From the NCBI GenBank assembly GCA_947630595.1, contig CANRIG010000031.1:1-34608 (forward strand): a DNA stretch of 34,608 nucleotides, written 5' to 3'. The position numbers were made by a program, and so were the translations under genes. The notes beneath the pieces were generated by a model. It was not told where the DNA came from, did no database searches, and worked only from the letters and a program-made list of their open reading frames with translations. Of the stretch, positions 4,888 through 10,766 are shown piece by piece; within the stretch, counting starts at the first letter, position 1; each line of letters starts with the position of its first letter. The stretch comes from an uncultured Lachnospiraceae bacterium (GTDB taxonomy: Bacteria > Bacillota > Clostridia > Lachnospirales > Lachnospiraceae).

Positions 4888-4916
4888 TTGAAAATTTGAA
4901 CACAGTGTGCTATAGT
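4888..4916 (+). promoter_or_regulatory. promoter for the cobalamin-riboswitch operon
   Basis: TTGAAA (4888-4893), a 17-bp spacer and TATAGT (4911-4916) lie directly upstream of the riboswitch, so transcription would begin near 4923. Confidence 0.7.
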
Positions 4917-4939
4917 CTGAATAACTGAACAGGGAAGGC

Positions 4940-5105
4940 AACAGGTGTCGGGCTGCTTCGGCAGTCCGGTGAAAAGGGAAACAGGTGTGAATCCTGTGCG
5001 ATCTCGTCACTGTATTTAGGGAGTGCGGGCCATGATGCCACTGGGAAACCGGGAAGGCGGCTGCGCATGATGATCTATGAGTCAGGAGACCTGCCTGCCG
5101 CCGGT
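4940..5105 (+). promoter_or_regulatory. cobalamin (B12) riboswitch
   Basis: The conserved core elements occur in order: GGGAA...GGTG.GAATCC (4976-4994), the CACTGT block (5008-5013), GCCACTGGGAAACCGGGAAG (about 5037-5056) and the B12 box GTCAGGAGACCTGCC (5081-5095). These match the AdoCbl-class consensus. It lies between the operon promoter and the cbiK-like gene, with a terminator-like hairpin just 3'. In this class corrinoid binding normally reduces expression, so the downstream genes should be induced when B12 is scarce. Confidence 0.95.
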
Positions 5106-5111
5106 GCGGGA

Positions 5112-5157
5112 GCGGACGCTCCAAACCACGAGGAATTGGTTTCGCCGTCTTTTTTTA
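5112..5157 (+). terminator. probable riboswitch-controlled terminator
   Basis: CGG/CCG plus AAACCA/TGGTTT stem segments are followed by TC and a run of seven T immediately after the B12 box. It is a plausible expression platform for transcriptional attenuation. A separate AT-rich hairpin at 5196-5224 (CTGATGT/ACATCAG) follows before the cbiK ribosome site. Confidence 0.55.
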
Positions 5158-5267
5158 TTGCTTTGGTGCAGTTCTGTTTTCCGTACCTGAAAAAGCTGAT
5201 GTAATTTATAAATATAAACATCAGAGGACAATGCAGAAGCGTTGCCCTGAAAAAGGAGGAAGACAGA

Positions 5268-6239
5268 ATGAAAAAGAGGACAGGAAAGGCTTTGGTGTTT
5301 GGCATGACGATGGCTGCGATGCTTGCCATGGGCGCAATGACGGCCGGCGCTGAGGAGACGGAGGCCGCTTCGGAAGCGGCGGAGGAGGAGACGGAGGCTT
5401 ACACGGGCGACGCTTCTCTGGACAACGCGAGGAACCAGGATGAGATCGGCGAGAACGAGCTTCTGGTCATCAGCTTCGGGACGAGCTTCAACGACAACCG
5501 GCGCGCGACCATCGGGGCGATCGAGGACGCGATGGAGGCCGCTTTCCCGGACTACTCCGTGCGCAGAGGCTTCACCAGCCAGATCATCATCGAGCATGTA
5601 CTGAGCCGCGACGGCGTCAAGATCGACAATGTCGGCGAGGCTCTGGACCGTGCGATCGACAACGGCGTAAAGACGCTGGTCGTACAGCCGACGCACCTGA
5701 TGAACGGCTATGAGTATACCGATCTGGAGACCGAGCTGGCGGAGTATGCGGATTCGTTTGACAAAATCGCGTTGGGCGCTCCGGTTCTGACGAGCGATGA
5801 GGATTTCGCGGCGGTCGAGAAAGCGATCACCGAGTGGACGGCGGATTACGACGACGGCGAGACTGCGGTCGTATTCATGGGACACGGCACAGAAGCGGAT
5901 TCCAACGCAGTGTACAGCAAGATGCAGGAGCTTCTGACAGCGGACGGATATGAGAACTACTATGTCGGCACGGTGGAGGCGACCCCGTCTCTGGACGATA
6001 TACTGGCGGCGATCGACGGGAAAGGCTACAAGAAGGTAGTGCTGTCTCCGCTGATGATCGTGGCCGGCGACCATGCGAACAACGACATGGCGGGCGACGA
6101 GGAAGGCGCCTGGAAGAAGACGTTTGAGGATGCAGGATATGAGGTAGAGTGTCTGATCCGCGGCCTCGGCGAGAACGAAGCGATCCGCAGCCTCCTTGTG
6201 GAGCATGCGCAGGCGGCGATCGACAGTCTGGCTGAGTAA
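5268..6239 (+). CDS. cbiK: exported CbiK-like sirohydrochlorin cobaltochelatase
   Basis: 323 residues. The chelatase domain (about 62-322) matches anaerobic CbiK: ISFGTSFNDNR at its start, PTHLMNGYEY (His143), MGHGTE (His206) and GDHANNDMAGDEE (His269), the last two histidines being the expected metal-site ligands. CbiK inserts Co2+ into sirohydrochlorin in cobalamin synthesis, normally in the cytoplasm. Here a clear signal peptide precedes it (KKR, hydrophobic 8-26, cleavage likely after AGA at 28), followed by an Ala/Glu-rich spacer (29-46). There is no lipobox Cys. Exported CbiK-type chelatases are known (CbiKP of Desulfovibrio vulgaris is periplasmic). The first gene after the B12 riboswitch, it has a strong AAGGAGG site. 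The substrate outside the cell (cobalt, a corrin precursor or haem) is unknown. Confidence 0.9.
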   Translation: MKKRTGKALVFGMTMAAMLAMGAMTAGAEETEAASEAAEEETEAYTGDASLDNARNQDEIGENELLVISFGTSFNDNRRATIGAIEDAMEAAFPDYSVRRGFTSQIIIEHVLSRDGVKIDNVGEALDRAIDNGVKTLVVQPTHLMNGYEYTDLETELAEYADSFDKIALGAPVLTSDEDFAAVEKAITEWTADYDDGETAVVFMGHGTEADSNAVYSKMQELLTADGYENYYVGTVEATPSLDDILAAIDGKGYKKVVLSPLMIVAGDHANNDMAGDEEGAWKKTFEDAGYEVECLIRGLGENEAIRSLLVEHAQAAIDSLAE

Positions 6240-6380
6240 TTTTTGATTTGACAGCATGGGTATGACAACCGGGACGGATACAGGAATGTGATGGGAGGGA
6301 CACAGCGTGGAGACATGCTGTGTCTGCCTGTTTCAGGGAATAAAAAAGGATCATGGAAAGGAAACAGAAGGAGGAGACAG

Positions 6381-7358
6381 ATGAAAAACAGGAGAAACAG
6401 GATAATTGCGGCGCTGGCTCTGGCGCTGTCCGGCAGCATGGCAATGACCGGGTTCGCGCAGGAGGCGCAGACGGAGGCGGCCGTGGAAGCGCAGGCTGCA
6501 GAGAATGAGTCAGAAAAGGCCGCGGAGACGGAGCTCGCGGAGGCGCAGTCTGAGAAAGCGCAGGCGGACGTTTCGGATCAGGTGGCGACCAAAGATGAGA
6601 TGGCCACGCCGCAGGATGTGGTCAGCGAGGATATGGAGCCGGTCTATGCGGACTCCATCAAGGAGGGAACCTATTCGATCGAGGTGCTTTCCAGCTCCTC
6701 CATGTTCCGCATCATCGACTGCCAGCTCACCGTCGCCGGCGGCGAAATGACGGCGGTGATGACCATGAATGGGGACGGCTATCTGAAGCTGTTTATGGGC
6801 ACCGGCGAGGAAGCGGCCGCGGCTGGGGAGGACGAGTGCATCCCCTTTGAACTGAACGACGACGGAAAGCAGACGTACGAGGTGCCGGTGGAGGCGCTGG
6901 ATATGGGCGTGGACTGCGCCGCGTTCAGCAAGAAAAAAGAAAAATGGTATGACCGCGTGCTGGTATTCAGCGCGGCTTCCCTGCCGCAGGACGCACGGCT
7001 GGATACCGAGATCGTGACGGCGCAGGACCTCGGCCTGGAGGACGGCGCATACACGATCGAGGTGACGCTCGGAGGCGGCTCCGGGAAGGCCGCGGTGGAG
7101 TCGCCGGCGGAGCTGACCGTGGCGGACGGCGCGGCGACGGCGGTGATTGTGTTCAGCAGCCCCAATTACGACTATGTGCTGGTGGACGGCGAGAAATACA
7201 CGACGGTGAACACGGAGGGCAATTCCGCGTTTGAAATCCCGGTGACCATGTTTGACGGGGAGATGCCGATCACGGCGGACACGATTGCCATGAGCACGCC
7301 GCATGAGATCGAGTACACGCTGCACTTTGACTCCGCGACCGCAAAGAAGGCGCAGTGA
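6381..7358 (+). CDS. exported protein with two NEAT-like domains
   Basis: 325 residues. The ATG at 6381 has GAAGGAGGAGACAG ahead of it, better than the upstream in-frame start. A signal peptide (1-26, ending GFA) is followed by a Glu/Ala/Gln-rich spacer (27-90). Two related beta-rich domains follow: about 94-202 (GTYSIEV..., LTVAGGEMTAVMTM) and 219-318 (GAYTIEV..., LTVADGAATAVIVF, SPNYDYVLVDG, ending HEIEYTLHFD). The pattern of a YxIxV strand, 'TVxDGxAxxxIV' and a closing HEYTxxF strand resembles NEAT haem-binding domains; this is by eye. There is no LPXTG, transmembrane anchor or lipobox. Its place between an exported chelatase and an ABC binding protein suggests it captures or hands over a tetrapyrrole or metal ligand. 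Confidence 0.7.
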   Translation: MKNRRNRIIAALALALSGSMAMTGFAQEAQTEAAVEAQAAENESEKAAETELAEAQSEKAQADVSDQVATKDEMATPQDVVSEDMEPVYADSIKEGTYSIEVLSSSSMFRIIDCQLTVAGGEMTAVMTMNGDGYLKLFMGTGEEAAAAGEDECIPFELNDDGKQTYEVPVEALDMGVDCAAFSKKKEKWYDRVLVFSAASLPQDARLDTEIVTAQDLGLEDGAYTIEVTLGGGSGKAAVESPAELTVADGAATAVIVFSSPNYDYVLVDGEKYTTVNTEGNSAFEIPVTMFDGEMPITADTIAMSTPHEIEYTLHFDSATAKKAQ

Positions 7359-8581
7359 TGAGGAAAATGAAACATTACGGGATATGGCTGGCGGCGGCGC
7401 TGCTGCTGGCGGCCGTGCCGGGCGGCGGGAAAACGCTGGCGGCGGAAGCACCGGAGGACGCAGAGACCGCAGAGGCTGCGGAGCAGCCCGGCGCAGAGCC
7501 GGCCGGGCAGGGCGCGGAGCCGGCGGCGGATACCTGGTGCGGCCTCACTTACAGCCACAGCATGGAGCTGGAGTACGCGCAGCAGTTCGCCGTGGACTAC
7601 TACGAGGGCGGCTACGTGCGGATCACGATCGCCGGCGAGGACTGCTTTCTGCTGATACCGGAGGGCGGCGAGGCGCCGCAGGGACTGGACGATTCCGTGA
7701 CGGTGCTGCAAAAGCCCGTGCAGAACATTTATCTGGTGGCGACCTCGGCCATGGACCTGTTCTGTTCCCTGGACGCGCTGGATTCCATCCGGCTGTCGGG
7801 GACGGACGCGAACGGCTGGTACGTGCCCGACGCGAAGGCCGCGCTGGAGGACGGCAGGATTCTCTACGCCGGCAAGTACAGCGCGCCGGATTATGAGCTG
7901 ATTGTCTCGGAGGACTGCGGGCTGGCCATCGAATCGACGATGATCTACCACAATCCAGAGGTGCAGGAAAAGCTGGAGGAGTTCGGCATTCCGGTGCTGG
8001 TGGAGCGTTCCAGCTACGAATCGCACCCGATGGGGCGCGCGGAATGGATGAAGCTGTACGGGGCGCTGCTGGGCCTGGAGGACAAAGCGGAGGAAGTGTT
8101 TGCCGCGCAGACGGCCCGCCTGCGGGAGATCGAATCCTCCGGCTCCACCGGAAAAACGGTCGCGTTTTTCTACATCGGCTCCAACGGCTACGCCAGCGTC
8201 CGCAAATCCAGCGATTACGTATCGATGATGATCGAACTGGCGGGAGGACACTATATCTTTGAACATCTGGGCGACGATGAGAACGCATTGTCCACCGTCA
8301 ATATGACTATGGAAGAATTTTACGCGCAGGCGAAAGACGCGGACTACATCATTTACAACAGCACGATCGACGGGGAGATCAACACGATCGACGAGCTGCT
8401 CGGCAAGAGCGAGCTGCTCGCGGATTTCAAGGCGGTGCAGGACGGCAATGTCTGGTGCACCGGCAAAAACCTGTTTCAGGAGACGACGAGCCTCGGCGAT
8501 ATGATCGCGGACATCCACACGGTGCTGACGGAGCCGGATGTGGACGAGGCGGAGCTCACCTATCTGCACCGGGTCGAATAG
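7358..8581 (+). CDS. ABC transporter substrate-binding protein (cobalamin/Fe-siderophore type)
   Basis: 407 residues; the ATG overlaps the previous stop by one base (TGATG), indicating coupling. The signal peptide (KMKHYG, hydrophobic 9-20, likely cut after LAA near 29) is followed by an Ala/Glu/Pro-rich acidic spacer to about 58. The rest is a class III BtuF/FhuD-type two-lobe binding protein: AIESTMIYHNPEVQEKLEEFGIPV-like first-lobe text near 190, VAFFYIGSNGYASVRKSSDYVSMMIELAGG near 270 and a GKSELLADFKAVQDGNVW-like ending. Gram-positive relatives are usually lipoproteins, but no lipobox Cys is seen in this signal. The ligand is not readable from sequence; the riboswitch and neighbours favour a corrinoid or related tetrapyrrole. 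Confidence 0.85.
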   Translation: MRKMKHYGIWLAAALLLAAVPGGGKTLAAEAPEDAETAEAAEQPGAEPAGQGAEPAADTWCGLTYSHSMELEYAQQFAVDYYEGGYVRITIAGEDCFLLIPEGGEAPQGLDDSVTVLQKPVQNIYLVATSAMDLFCSLDALDSIRLSGTDANGWYVPDAKAALEDGRILYAGKYSAPDYELIVSEDCGLAIESTMIYHNPEVQEKLEEFGIPVLVERSSYESHPMGRAEWMKLYGALLGLEDKAEEVFAAQTARLREIESSGSTGKTVAFFYIGSNGYASVRKSSDYVSMMIELAGGHYIFEHLGDDENALSTVNMTMEEFYAQAKDADYIIYNSTIDGEINTIDELLGKSELLADFKAVQDGNVWCTGKNLFQETTSLGDMIADIHTVLTEPDVDEAELTYLHRVE

Positions 8582-8640
8582 CGGGAATCGTAAAAGACAA
8601 ACGGCAGGAAGTACAAAACAGAAAACACGGGATACACGGC

Positions 8641-9657
8641 ATGAACAAAAAGGCATACAGGCGCTACGCCGTATCGTTTGCGGCGCTGGCGCTGCTGCTG
8701 GCGGCGCTTCTGGTGTGGAACATCAATTCCGGCAGCGTCAGCCTTTCGGTGAGAGAGATTTTTCACATTCTGGTATTTCGCGGCGGCGATGAGACGGCCT
8801 ACAATATTATATGGCAGATTCGGCTGCCGCGGATTCTGGCGGCGATCATTCTGGGCGGGGCGCTTTCCGTGTCCGGCTTTCTTCTGCAGACCTTTTTCGG
8901 CAATCCGATCGCCGGCCCCTTTGTGCTCGGCATTTCGTCCGGCTCCAAGCTGGTGGTGGCGCTGGTGATGGTGTACCTGCTCGGGCGCTCGGTGACCATC
9001 AGCTCCGCCGGCATGATTGCCGCGGCCTTTGTCGGGGCCATGATCTCCATGGGCTTTGTGCTGCTGTTTTCACGCAAGATCAGCCGCATGTCGATGCTGG
9101 TCATCAGCGGCGTCATGATCGGTTATATCTGCTCAGCCATCACCGATTTCGTCGTCACCTTCGCCGACGATTCCAACATCGTCAACCTTCACAACTGGTC
9201 GCTGGGCAGCTTTTCCGGCATGACCTGGGGCAACGTGACGGTGATGGCCGCGGTGGTGGGGCTGGCGTCGGCGGTTACTTTTTTGATGTCGAAGCCGATC
9301 AGCGCCTACCAGCTGGGCGAGGTGTACGCGCAGAACCTGGGCGTCAACATCCGCCTGTTCCGGGTGGCGCTGATTCTGCTGTCCAGCGTGCTCTCGGCCT
9401 GCGTCACAGCCTTTGCCGGCCCGATTTCGTTCGTGGGGATTGCGGTGCCGCACCTGGTCAAGAGCATGCTGAAAACGGCGAAGCCGCTGCTGGTGATTCC
9501 GGCCTGCTTTCTGGGCGGGGCGGTGTTCTGTCTGTTCTGCGACCTGATCGCGCGCACCATGTTTGCGCCCACGGAACTGTCCATCAGCTCGGTCACGGCC
9601 GTTTTCGGCGCGCCGGTCGTCATTTATATCATGGTGCGGAGGCGGAAAACGGTATGA
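8641..9657 (+). CDS. ABC transporter permease, FecCD/BtuC family
   Basis: 338 residues with about nine to ten membrane segments. Family hallmarks are present: IWQIRLPRILAAIILGGALSVSG near the first third, QTFFGNPIAGPFVLGISSGSK, and the C-terminal FAGPISFVGIAVPHLVK that forms the coupling contact with the ATPase. FecCD permeases import Fe-siderophores, haem or cobalamin. The ATG at 8641 is 59 bp after the binding-protein stop and has only a weak ribosome site. The next gene overlaps by four bases (ATGA). With its partners it should form a BtuC2D2-type importer. Confidence 0.92.
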   Translation: MNKKAYRRYAVSFAALALLLAALLVWNINSGSVSLSVREIFHILVFRGGDETAYNIIWQIRLPRILAAIILGGALSVSGFLLQTFFGNPIAGPFVLGISSGSKLVVALVMVYLLGRSVTISSAGMIAAAFVGAMISMGFVLLFSRKISRMSMLVISGVMIGYICSAITDFVVTFADDSNIVNLHNWSLGSFSGMTWGNVTVMAAVVGLASAVTFLMSKPISAYQLGEVYAQNLGVNIRLFRVALILLSSVLSACVTAFAGPISFVGIAVPHLVKSMLKTAKPLLVIPACFLGGAVFCLFCDLIARTMFAPTELSISSVTAVFGAPVVIYIMVRRRKTV

Positions 9658-10766
9658 GTCGGGAAGAATACTACTTTCACACGGAAAAAATGACGGTCGG
9701 CTACGACGGCAAACCCCTGATCCGCGACATTGAGATGTGCGTGAAGCGGGGGCAGATCCTGACGCTGATCGGGCCCAACGGCGGCGGCAAATCGACCATC
9801 TTGAAGAGCATTACGCGGCAGATGAAAACGATCGGCGGCACGGTGTACCTTGACGGCAGAACGCTGCAGGAGCTGTCGGGGCGGGAGCTGTCGCAGAAGC
9901 TGGCGGTGGTGCTGACGGAGCGGATGCGCTCCGAGCTGATGACCTGCGGGGACGTGGTGGCGACCGGGCGCTATCCCTACACGGGGGCGCTGGGCATTCT
10001 CACGGAGGAGGACTGGGCCAAGGTGCGGGAGGCGATGGACCTGGTGCATGCGCTGGAGCTGCAGGAGCGGGATTTCCATGCGATCAGCGACGGGCAGCGG
10101 CAGCGGGTTTTACTGGCGCGCGCGATCTGCCAGGAGCCGGAGATCATCGTCCTGGACGAGCCCACCTCATATCTGGATATCCGTCACAAGCTGGAATTAT
10201 TGACGATTCTCAAGCAGATGGTGGCGCAGCGGCGGGTGGCGGTCGTCATGTCGCTGCATGAGCTGGATCTGGCGCAGAAGATTTCCGATTTCGTGCTCTG
10301 CGTGCACGGGGAATACATTGACCGGGCAGGGACGCCGGAGGAGGTGTTCACCTCGGAGTACATCTGCCGGCTGTACGGCATCACGCGGGGCAGCTACGAC
10401 GCGCTGTTCGGCAGCGTGGAGATGGAGCGCGCGCCGGGCGCACCGCAGGTGTTTGTGATCTGCGGCGGCGGCAGCGGCATCCCGGTGTTCCGCGCGCTGC
10501 AGCGAAAGGGCATTCCCTTTGCCGCGGGCGTTCTGCACCGCAGCGACATCGACTACGAGGCGGCCAGGGCGCTGGCCTCGGCGGTGATTGCGGAGGAGGC
10601 CTATGAGCCGGTCGGCGGGGCGCGCGTGCAGGAGGCGCTGGAGGTGCTGCGCTCCTGCAGAAAGGCGATCTGCTGTCTCGATTCGTTCGGGACGATGAAC
10701 GCCGGAAACCGCCTGCTGCGGGACGAGGCGCGGCGGCTGGGCCTGCTGGAGGACGCCGCCGTTTAG
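9654..10766 (+). CDS. ABC transporter ATPase with extra C-terminal domain
   Basis: 370 residues against roughly 255 for standard FecE/BtuD ATPases. Walker A is GPNGGGKST (about 40-48), the signature is ISDGQRQR (about 145) and Walker B is IIVLDEPTSYLD, followed by the H-loop SLHELDLA. The Q-loop position reads VVLTERM, as in several FecE-like ATPases. After about residue 260 comes an added domain of about 110 residues beginning VFVICGGGSGIPVFRAL, with a Rossmann-like beta-GGGSG-alpha start and a Cys-containing RSCRKAICCLDSFG segment. The extension may be a ligand- or nucleotide-sensing domain that gates uptake (inference). The start overlaps the permease stop by 4 bp. It is the last gene before a terminator. 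Confidence 0.92.
   Translation: MSREEYYFHTEKMTVGYDGKPLIRDIEMCVKRGQILTLIGPNGGGKSTILKSITRQMKTIGGTVYLDGRTLQELSGRELSQKLAVVLTERMRSELMTCGDVVATGRYPYTGALGILTEEDWAKVREAMDLVHALELQERDFHAISDGQRQRVLLARAICQEPEIIVLDEPTSYLDIRHKLELLTILKQMVAQRRVAVVMSLHELDLAQKISDFVLCVHGEYIDRAGTPEEVFTSEYICRLYGITRGSYDALFGSVEMERAPGAPQVFVICGGGSGIPVFRALQRKGIPFAAGVLHRSDIDYEAARALASAVIAEEAYEPVGGARVQEALEVLRSCRKAICCLDSFGTMNAGNRLLRDEARRLGLLEDAAV

Follow-up and report, generated by a model that had tools for sequence, protein, structure and literature searches.

We analysed a 34,608-nucleotide stretch of DNA from an uncultured Lachnospiraceae bacterium (GenBank assembly GCA_947630595.1, contig CANRIG010000031.1), hereafter the window, in which a cobalamin riboswitch is followed on the same strand by five genes for an exported relative of the cobaltochelatase CbiK, a NEAT-like protein, a binding protein, a FecCD permease and an ATPase (4926-10766). 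The window constitutes contig C31 of a draft genome of 3.31 Mb (151 contigs, 99% complete). Numbered loci, sampled genomes and contigs are denoted by L, G and C, respectively, G000 being the source genome of the window. The cassette consists of the following parts.

4926..5112, + strand: cobalamin riboswitch aptamer RF00174 (cmscan 108.3 bits, gathering cut-off 31.5, full model 1-189)
5268..6239, + strand: exported CbiK-family chelatase, 323 aa (PF06180, 269.3 bits, cut-off 26.2)
6381..7358, + strand: exported protein of 325 aa with a tandem NEAT fold, domains at about 95-205 and about 217-323
7358..8581, + strand: secreted substrate-binding protein of an ABC importer, starting with GTG at 7355 or ATG at 7358 (PF01497, 118 bits)
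8641..9657, + strand: FecCD-type permease (PF01032, 268 bits; PDB kin FhuB, HmuU and BtuC)
9654..10766, + strand: ABC ATPase, extended C-terminally by about 120 aa (PF00005, 99.7 bits)

The CbiK of the window is built of a signal peptide, an acidic linker and the CbiK domain (residues 64-320), which carries the active-site-type residues His143, Glu149, His206 and His269. Its solved relatives are 1qgo, which we take to be Salmonella CbiK, 9b86, which is FetB and the second-best match (E 1.3e-41), and 2xvx (E 1.2e-37), deposited as 'chelatase, putative', which together with 2xvy and 2xvz we take to be CbiK-P, the periplasmic CbiK of Desulfovibrio vulgaris. The four residues are invariant in 113 of 113 exported CbiKs, and the His, Glu and His that are presumably catalytic, as in Salmonella CbiK, are also invariant in 17 of 17 CbiKs lacking an N-terminal extension and in 4 of 4 having a long fused N-terminus. 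The window protein scored 234.5 bits with the NCBIfam equivalog for sirohydrochlorin cobaltochelatase, short of the cut-off of 400. It may insert cobalt into sirohydrochlorin.

The export signal is conserved among the N-terminally extended relatives of this enzyme. Using a test that covered only the sequence before the CbiK core, with a permissive lipobox pattern, we found a lipoprotein-type signal in 95 and a type I signal in 13 of the 113 distinct N-terminally extended CbiKs; the five without a call were one protein clipped at a contig end (L047) and four with a mis-picked start, in which a signal was seen at another start. No signal was found by this test in the 17 CbiKs without extension or in the 4 with a long fused N-terminus. 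A looser heuristic used first had flagged 16 of 20 CbiKs whose extension is short or absent, mostly via the hydrophobic first core strand, and two of those 20 (L042 and L055) are truly exported; scored by the same heuristic, 1 of 61 ATPases taken as a control looked signal-like. In a quick tree, some cytosolic branches of which are long, a single branch parts exported from cytosolic CbiKs (47 versus 21 rows, SH-aLRT 96). A non-functional signal peptide is unlikely, because type I and lipoprotein-type signals are interchanged among the relatives.

A search of genome contigs with CbiK returned at least 589 relatives, of which 80 loci were kept, from Clostridia, Bacillota or taxa taken for Clostridia. 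The five genes stand in order in 62 of the 80, counting as the 62nd L030, where the binding-protein frame is present though no start was assigned; 13 of the remaining 18 loci are clipped by a contig end and five are real departures (L008, L012, L033, L060 and L086). Rfam scanning of 43 of the 80 loci placed the riboswitch ahead of CbiK in 40 (18/20, 12/13 and 10/10), with no match at L023, L055 and L032, and a strict B12-box motif was present in 27 of 78 upstream regions, where 2.1 were expected. The source genome has a second full copy of the cassette on C36 with its own riboswitch. Synteny, riboswitch counts and this second copy rule out chance or an isolated oddity. An earlier note on this DNA, made from the letters alone, had described one B12-controlled unit of a riboswitch and five genes with an exported CbiK, and had named conserved synteny and signal peptides as checks; the riboswitch match, gene content and order confirm the unit, export held up in the 95 lipoprotein-type and 13 type I signals, and the linkage of exported CbiK with NEAT-like and FecCD genes is kept in the 62 loci.

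The distribution of exported and cytosolic CbiK was surveyed in a family sample of 120 genomes from 120 genera, with statistics uncorrected for kinship. A cassette, taken here as a CbiK with a NEAT-like protein downstream, occurred in 36 genomes in 38 copies, one of which (G102:C1:1337230) was counted via the NEAT match of a tandem neighbour. A riboswitch lay within 1.5 kb upstream of 32 of the 38, versus 5 of 45 other CbiK matches, and CbiD was found in 35 of the 36 cassette genomes versus 32 of the 84 others (p 1.8e-10). Twenty-five genomes had the exported CbiK only; all 25 had CbiD and none had short, cobalt-type CbiM, defined as a match over the full length that stops at profile position 201-202. 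By comparison, 27 of the 29 genomes with cytosolic CbiK only had CbiD, and short CbiM was present in 20 of those 27 (0/25 versus 20/27, Fisher p 7.5e-9, kinship uncorrected). No separate CbiX was found in the 25 exported-only genomes, where the CbiX matches were the CbiKs themselves, and CobN was found in 0 of 29 genomes searched, which included all 25. In these 25 genomes, the exported CbiK occurs to the exclusion of cytosolic CbiK, CbiX, CobN and short CbiM. The only cobalamin riboswitch detected under stricter filters in 17 of the 25 lies 0.37-0.80 kb ahead of the cassette CbiK. Long CbiM-family proteins, probably of the nickel type, occur in 7 of the 25.

These counts depend on several choices. 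An exported-type CbiK with a long N-extension and no NEAT match nearby (G058:C31) was set aside; counting it would give 12 genomes with both CbiK types and a comparison of 0/25 versus 19/26. One hit in G088 was kept separate for its long frame, the genome being counted through its other hit, and eight partial CbiM matches at E above 1e-8 were unused. The cytosolic set left out a 132-base match (G063:C96) and a 501-base fragment (G010:C69); 20 of its sequences were read individually and the rest within read loci, with the exception of G105:C21, and no cytosolic-counted CbiK that was read had a signal. Five CbiD-positive genomes had neither CbiK type (G003, G018, G040, G052 and G094); in G003 only 71 bases of contig lie upstream of a NEAT match, and G018 and G052 are 78% and 84% complete. 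In a class sample of 392 genomes, a NEAT-like protein (E <= 1e-15) was found in 25, of which 23 had CbiD versus 94 of the 367 others (p 2.7e-11, kinship likewise uncorrected), and in 16 of the 25 it lay within 6 kb of CbiD. The two CbiD-negative members are fragmented, and four other positive members of their genus have CbiD. G000 and G027 are shared by both samples, leaving 23 new genomes, 21 with CbiD and 16 with NEAT linkage.

Gene order connects the cassette with B12 synthesis. In L148, a single strand carries CbiK, the NEAT protein, binding protein, permease and ATPase, then CbiP, CobT, CobU, CobS, CbiB, CobD, CbiC, CbiD, CbiF, CbiG, CbiH and CbiJ; L120, L124 and L175-L178 have orders like it, and similar orders reach other families of the class. 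CbiK and NEAT stand directly ahead of cbi genes in L174, while L173 has NEAT, binding protein, permease and ATPase, then CbiK, a second NEAT and cbi genes. In the family sample, CbiD follows within 20 kb on the same strand in 10 of the 36 cassette genomes. Gene fusions separate along the same line: five proteins join exported CbiK to NEAT and eight join NEAT to the binding protein, plus further forms with several NEAT domains, while cytosolic CbiK is fused to an ABC ATPase (four), CbiL (one) or CbiH (one). In L093, L096, L097 and L100, cytosolic CbiK stands behind the ATPase, which would physically couple cobalt import and insertion; this ATPase is probably CbiO, and in the case of L097 the same contig of genome G026 carries a riboswitch and a short CbiM.

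The source genome itself appears to have the pathway that such a cassette could serve. Its two cassettes do not adjoin cbi genes, which lie on C24 and C63. CobA, CbiL, CbiF, CbiH and cobyrinate diamide synthase (CbiA) matched their profiles above the cut-off, CbiG and CbiC were best matches below it, CbiD and CbiJ were identified by Pfam, and CbiE and CbiT were also found; HemB, HemL, CobU, CobS, CbiB, CobD, CbiP, CobT, HemA and HemC were recognised by sequence reading alone. No CbiK, CbiX or CobN was found inside this cell, as both CbiKs are exported and account for the two CbiX matches, and CobN is absent; apart from this step, the Cbi pathway looks complete. Its CbiD is part of a fusion protein of 694 aa, in which it follows a histidine-phosphatase (CobC-type) domain (L119:10030-12111).

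The second and third gene products bear on what is carried. A fold search gave the NEAT fold for the tandem protein, saying little on domain 1 alone, and the protein fell short of the curated cut-off of the NEAT family PF05031 (22.0 versus 32.8 bits). Haem and porphyrins are the solved ligands among the fold matches, whose listing includes 3qzp, an IsdA NEAT domain crystallised with cobalt protoporphyrin; to our knowledge, NEAT folds bind tetrapyrroles, not ions. The binding protein, which has no lipobox cysteine in the window copy, belongs to a family whose profile lies nearest to Lmo2184 (5joq, E 7.5e-9) and then to IsdE (E 0.0041), both of which have haem roles, and the profile search, taken up to E 10, listed no chain under the name BtuF. 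The NEAT fold and such a binding protein would suit a planar metallo-tetrapyrrole as cargo. The same features could serve the scavenging of haem iron, in which CbiK would strip iron from haem and the NEAT protein and importer would bring in iron or porphyrin. YxxxY is the haem-iron ligand motif of NEAT domains, and it is missing from domain 1 in 50 of 50 sequences and present in domain 2 in 5 of 50 and missing in 45. Among the solved relatives of CbiK, FetB/IhtB (9b86) ranks second, and IhtB, IhtC, IhtD and IhtE of the Iht system of Porphyromonas gingivalis are the same parts (PMC10913741). B12 control, the location in cbi operons and near-restriction to genomes with CbiD are unexpected for an iron system, and we regard haem-iron scavenging as very improbable.

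We propose instead that the cassette serves de novo anaerobic cobalamin synthesis as an arm outside the cytoplasm that loads cobalt and imports the product, a reading to which we give a probability of about 0.46. When cobalamin is low, the riboswitch would permit expression of the operon. CbiK would work outside the membrane, charging a sirohydrochlorin-type tetrapyrrole with Co(II). The tandem NEAT-fold protein would pick up this cobalt-tetrapyrrole and pass it on to the binding protein, and import through the FecCD permease and the ATPase would deliver it to CbiL and the later Cbi enzymes. The cassette would thereby do, in the genomes relying on it, the job of a cytosolic CbiK and a CbiM-type cobalt importer. 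We infer the substrate, the direction of the reaction, the cargo of the importer and the exit of the metal-free tetrapyrrole; charging outside, hand-over by the NEAT and binding proteins and import form the simplest path that employs all five parts. In the anaerobic pathway, CbiK or CbiX charges sirohydrochlorin, which CbiL then methylates (PMC7242693), and Salmonella CbiK acting on sirohydrochlorin has a Km of 0.79 nM for Co(II) (PMC10206600), so that a scarce extracellular pool of Co(II) could suffice. It is conceivable, and we hold this more tentatively, that the cell releases or exposes its own sirohydrochlorin, charges it outside by CbiK and re-imports it, the intermediate acting as a cobaltophore and making a separate cobalt importer unneeded; alternatively, neighbouring cells could possibly supply the metal-free tetrapyrrole. 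The earlier note had reasoned that an exported CbiK needs a job other than its usual cytoplasmic one, which we judge right. Among the jobs it listed, which also included sequestration of cobalt, demetallation of a scavenged tetrapyrrole and scavenging of corrinoids, metallation fits best. The context speaks for de novo synthesis more than for scavenging: CbiD in 35/36 cassette genomes, a cassette heading cbi operons, and 25/36 without cytosolic CbiK and short CbiM.

A number of observations weigh against this proposal. No exporter of a metal-free tetrapyrrole is among the cassette genes, the only place where one was looked for. Both CbiK types occur together in 11 genomes, of which 10 have CbiD and 2 short CbiM. 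Partial, untyped CbiM-family matches lie near contig ends in 2 of the 25 exported-only genomes, one above the cut-off with 29 residues at a contig start (G066) and one below it (G091), and the lack of cobalt importers in the 25 refers to short CbiM, as NikABCDE, NiCoT and others were not searched for. G040, G052 and G094 have CbiD and no CbiK of any kind. Further points of this sort concern the importer and the entry of cobalt, and each of these two groups suits a different explanation.

As for the importer, the best NCBIfam match of the permease is BtuC (211.5 bits, cut-off 334) and that of the ATPase is the corrinoid ABC ATPase PRK09536 (198.2 bits, cut-off 537), both below cut-off. The C-terminal extension of the ATPase (10413-10766 of the window) lies outside the Pfam match, and the ATPases of several relatives are shorter, at about 250 aa. 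In L155, NEAT, binding protein, permease and ATPase stand ahead of cbi genes without CbiK, and in L128 the binding protein, permease and ATPase stand with a cytosolic CbiK-CbiL fusion (L128:16664-18205), which heads a cbi cluster, without a NEAT protein. In addition, giant NEAT-repeat proteins of about 950-1800 aa with no CbiK adjoining were found at six loci.

L149:2247-5471: giant NEAT locus
L150:5395-9180: giant NEAT locus
L151:7732-10572: giant NEAT locus
L152:7829-13264: giant NEAT locus
L153:2504-6910: giant NEAT locus
L156:4667-7834: giant NEAT locus

Each giant protein is followed by a separate protein read as a binding protein, with a permease and an ATPase after it in five of the six, and some end in a binding-protein-like part themselves. 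A cobalamin riboswitch lies ahead of five of the six, none being listed near L156. These loci are a second class of B12-controlled NEAT locus, in which the NEAT and importer part is independent of CbiK, so that the capture of corrinoids remains a serious rival. The three exported proteins would then relay cobamides or cobinamide to a BtuCD-like importer as a salvage route of B12 producers, with CbiK as a corrinoid-binding or remodelling protein. The riboswitch at 40 of the 43 scanned loci, the best matches of permease and ATPase, the retention of the importer without exported CbiK in L155 and L128, and putative corrinoid ABC importers reported in cobalamin-riboswitch operons (PMC4285132) agree with it. 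Against it, the cassette occurs in 35 CbiD-positive and only 1 CbiD-negative of the 120 genomes, whereas auxotrophs should gain at least as much from salvage; the 25 exported-only genomes would be left with no CbiK, CbiX or CobN to make B12; all 113 exported proteins retain the chelatase residues; and the binding-protein profile finds Lmo2184 and IsdE but, up to E 10, nothing labelled BtuF. On balance we consider corrinoid capture rather unlikely.

As for cobalt, the source cell may have other means of both import and insertion. Its precorrin-2 dehydrogenase of 175 aa scores above the cut-off of the CysG N-terminal model TIGR01470 (94.7 versus 62.3 bits), although over only positions 1-145 of 205, and Pfam finds only the NAD-binding domain in it; in CysG, the dehydrogenase and the chelatase share one active site (PMC7018833), and a CysG-type chelatase may thus be present inside the cell. 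This family was searched in the source genome only. A NikA-like ABC system stands behind a cobalamin riboswitch (G000:C63:225-473; L089:623-5606), its best NCBIfam match being TIGR02294, below cut-off. Cobalt may enter by this system, because the riboswitch-linked NikABCDE of C. tetani and D. hafniense are excepted from the nickel-specific ones (PMC2667541). The cassette could then be for cobalt import only, with exported CbiK as a cobalt-binding scavenger and another enzyme, for example of the CysG type, inserting cobalt inside. Its mutual exclusion with short CbiM (0/25 versus 20/27) would be expected, as would the importer of L128 beside a cytosolic CbiK-CbiL fusion in a genome, G008, that shows no CbiM, and the presence in the source genome of a protein above the CysG N-terminal cut-off, since CysG holds both activities (PMC7018833). 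A mere scavenger, on the other hand, would not call for the full set of active-site residues kept in 113/113, and NEAT folds, with haem and porphyrins as their solved ligands, are known to bind tetrapyrroles and are not known to bind ions. We find this explanation distinctly doubtful.

The proposed loading of cobalt outside the membrane would have consequences beyond this operon. Many gut Clostridia with B12 genes appear to keep their sole CbiK-type enzyme outside the membrane; in 25 sampled CbiD-positive genera the exported enzyme is the only chelatase of the CbiK, CbiX or CobN type found. If the proposal is true, one step of B12 biosynthesis lies outside the cytoplasm, an intermediate of the pathway may serve to carry metal, and B12 intermediates could pass between gut bacteria. 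For the exported CbiK of Porphyromonas, a haem-iron role was proposed (PMC10913741). A genome-based reconstruction of B12 synthesis lists CbiK, CbiX and CbiX2 as alternatives (PMC6593275), and reconstructions that accept any CbiK as the pathway chelatase would then hide a different cobalt route.

Two further features flank the aptamer.

4888..4916, + strand: promoter-like site TTGAAA-17-TATAGT with TG ahead of the second hexamer, from a consensus scan (weak evidence)
5113..5160, + strand: candidate expression platform, an inverted repeat followed by seven T, as read from the sequence

Between 4700 and 11000, four promoter-like sites were observed versus 2.1 expected in shuffles. The region 5090-5170 did not fold more stably than shuffles (z 0.07) and was absent from the terminator-like sites of the scan, neither of which supports a terminator, so that the platform is a possible one. 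Nothing unusual was seen among the neighbours examined outside the cassette, which are a diguanylate cyclase and PutP upstream and a malic enzyme downstream. Elsewhere in the source genome, a cobalamin riboswitch (105.9 bits; G000:C9:54319-54502, - strand) lies about 0.3 kb ahead of a same-strand gene read as spoIVA (L088:12515-13984), a sporulation coat protein and an odd target for B12 control.

Finally, the cassette can be compared with known systems. The Iht system of P. gingivalis (IhtA-E) contains the CbiK-like haem-binding lipoprotein IhtB with IhtC-E (PMC10913741) and is proposed to take iron from haem (PMC10913741; PMC13227078); FetB of 9b86 is taken as IhtB. Both systems combine an exported CbiK-like protein with a binding protein, a permease and an ATPase, whereas Iht works in a diderm with a TonB-dependent receptor, its proposed reaction is removal of iron from haem, and no NEAT protein is named in the available passages. 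There is no TonB-dependent receptor within the five cassette genes, the rest of the genome not having been searched.

CbiK-P of D. vulgaris, which we take to be exported to the periplasm, resembles the window enzyme in family (2xvx, E 1.2e-37) and in export, and we know of no NEAT protein with it. In Desulfovibrio, one B12-element regulates cbiK-cbiL and btuCDF, delta-proteobacteria bearing cbiK are described as having no homologues of known cobalt transporters, and cbtX, beside cbiK, is predicted to be a new one (PMC545781). These loci show a similar pattern of a B12-controlled cbiK and no known cobalt transporter, and they differ in the proteobacterial periplasm and in the predicted cbtX.

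With the Isd/NEAT relays (IsdX1, IsdC, IsdE and Listeria Lmo2184), the cassette has in common a NEAT fold outside the cell, a haem-receptor-like binding protein and a FecCD-type importer; it differs in its cobalamin riboswitch, cbi linkage and added chelatase, and YxxxY is not kept. Cytosolic CbiK with CbiMNQO belongs to the same enzyme family with the same active-site residues and pathway slot. It lies on the other side of the supported branch (SH-aLRT 96), is accompanied by short CbiM (20/27) and has six fusions to ABC ATPase, CbiL or CbiH and none to NEAT. In the literature searched, which left most subscription papers outside, we found neither a NEAT domain, cobalamin and a riboswitch together nor, in the passages available, this cassette in Clostridia. 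Neither the NEAT partner nor the location in Clostridial cbi operons nor the replacement of cytosolic CbiK and CbiM turned up in the publications searched. The cassette therewith belongs among the known exported-CbiK systems, as a variant of them.

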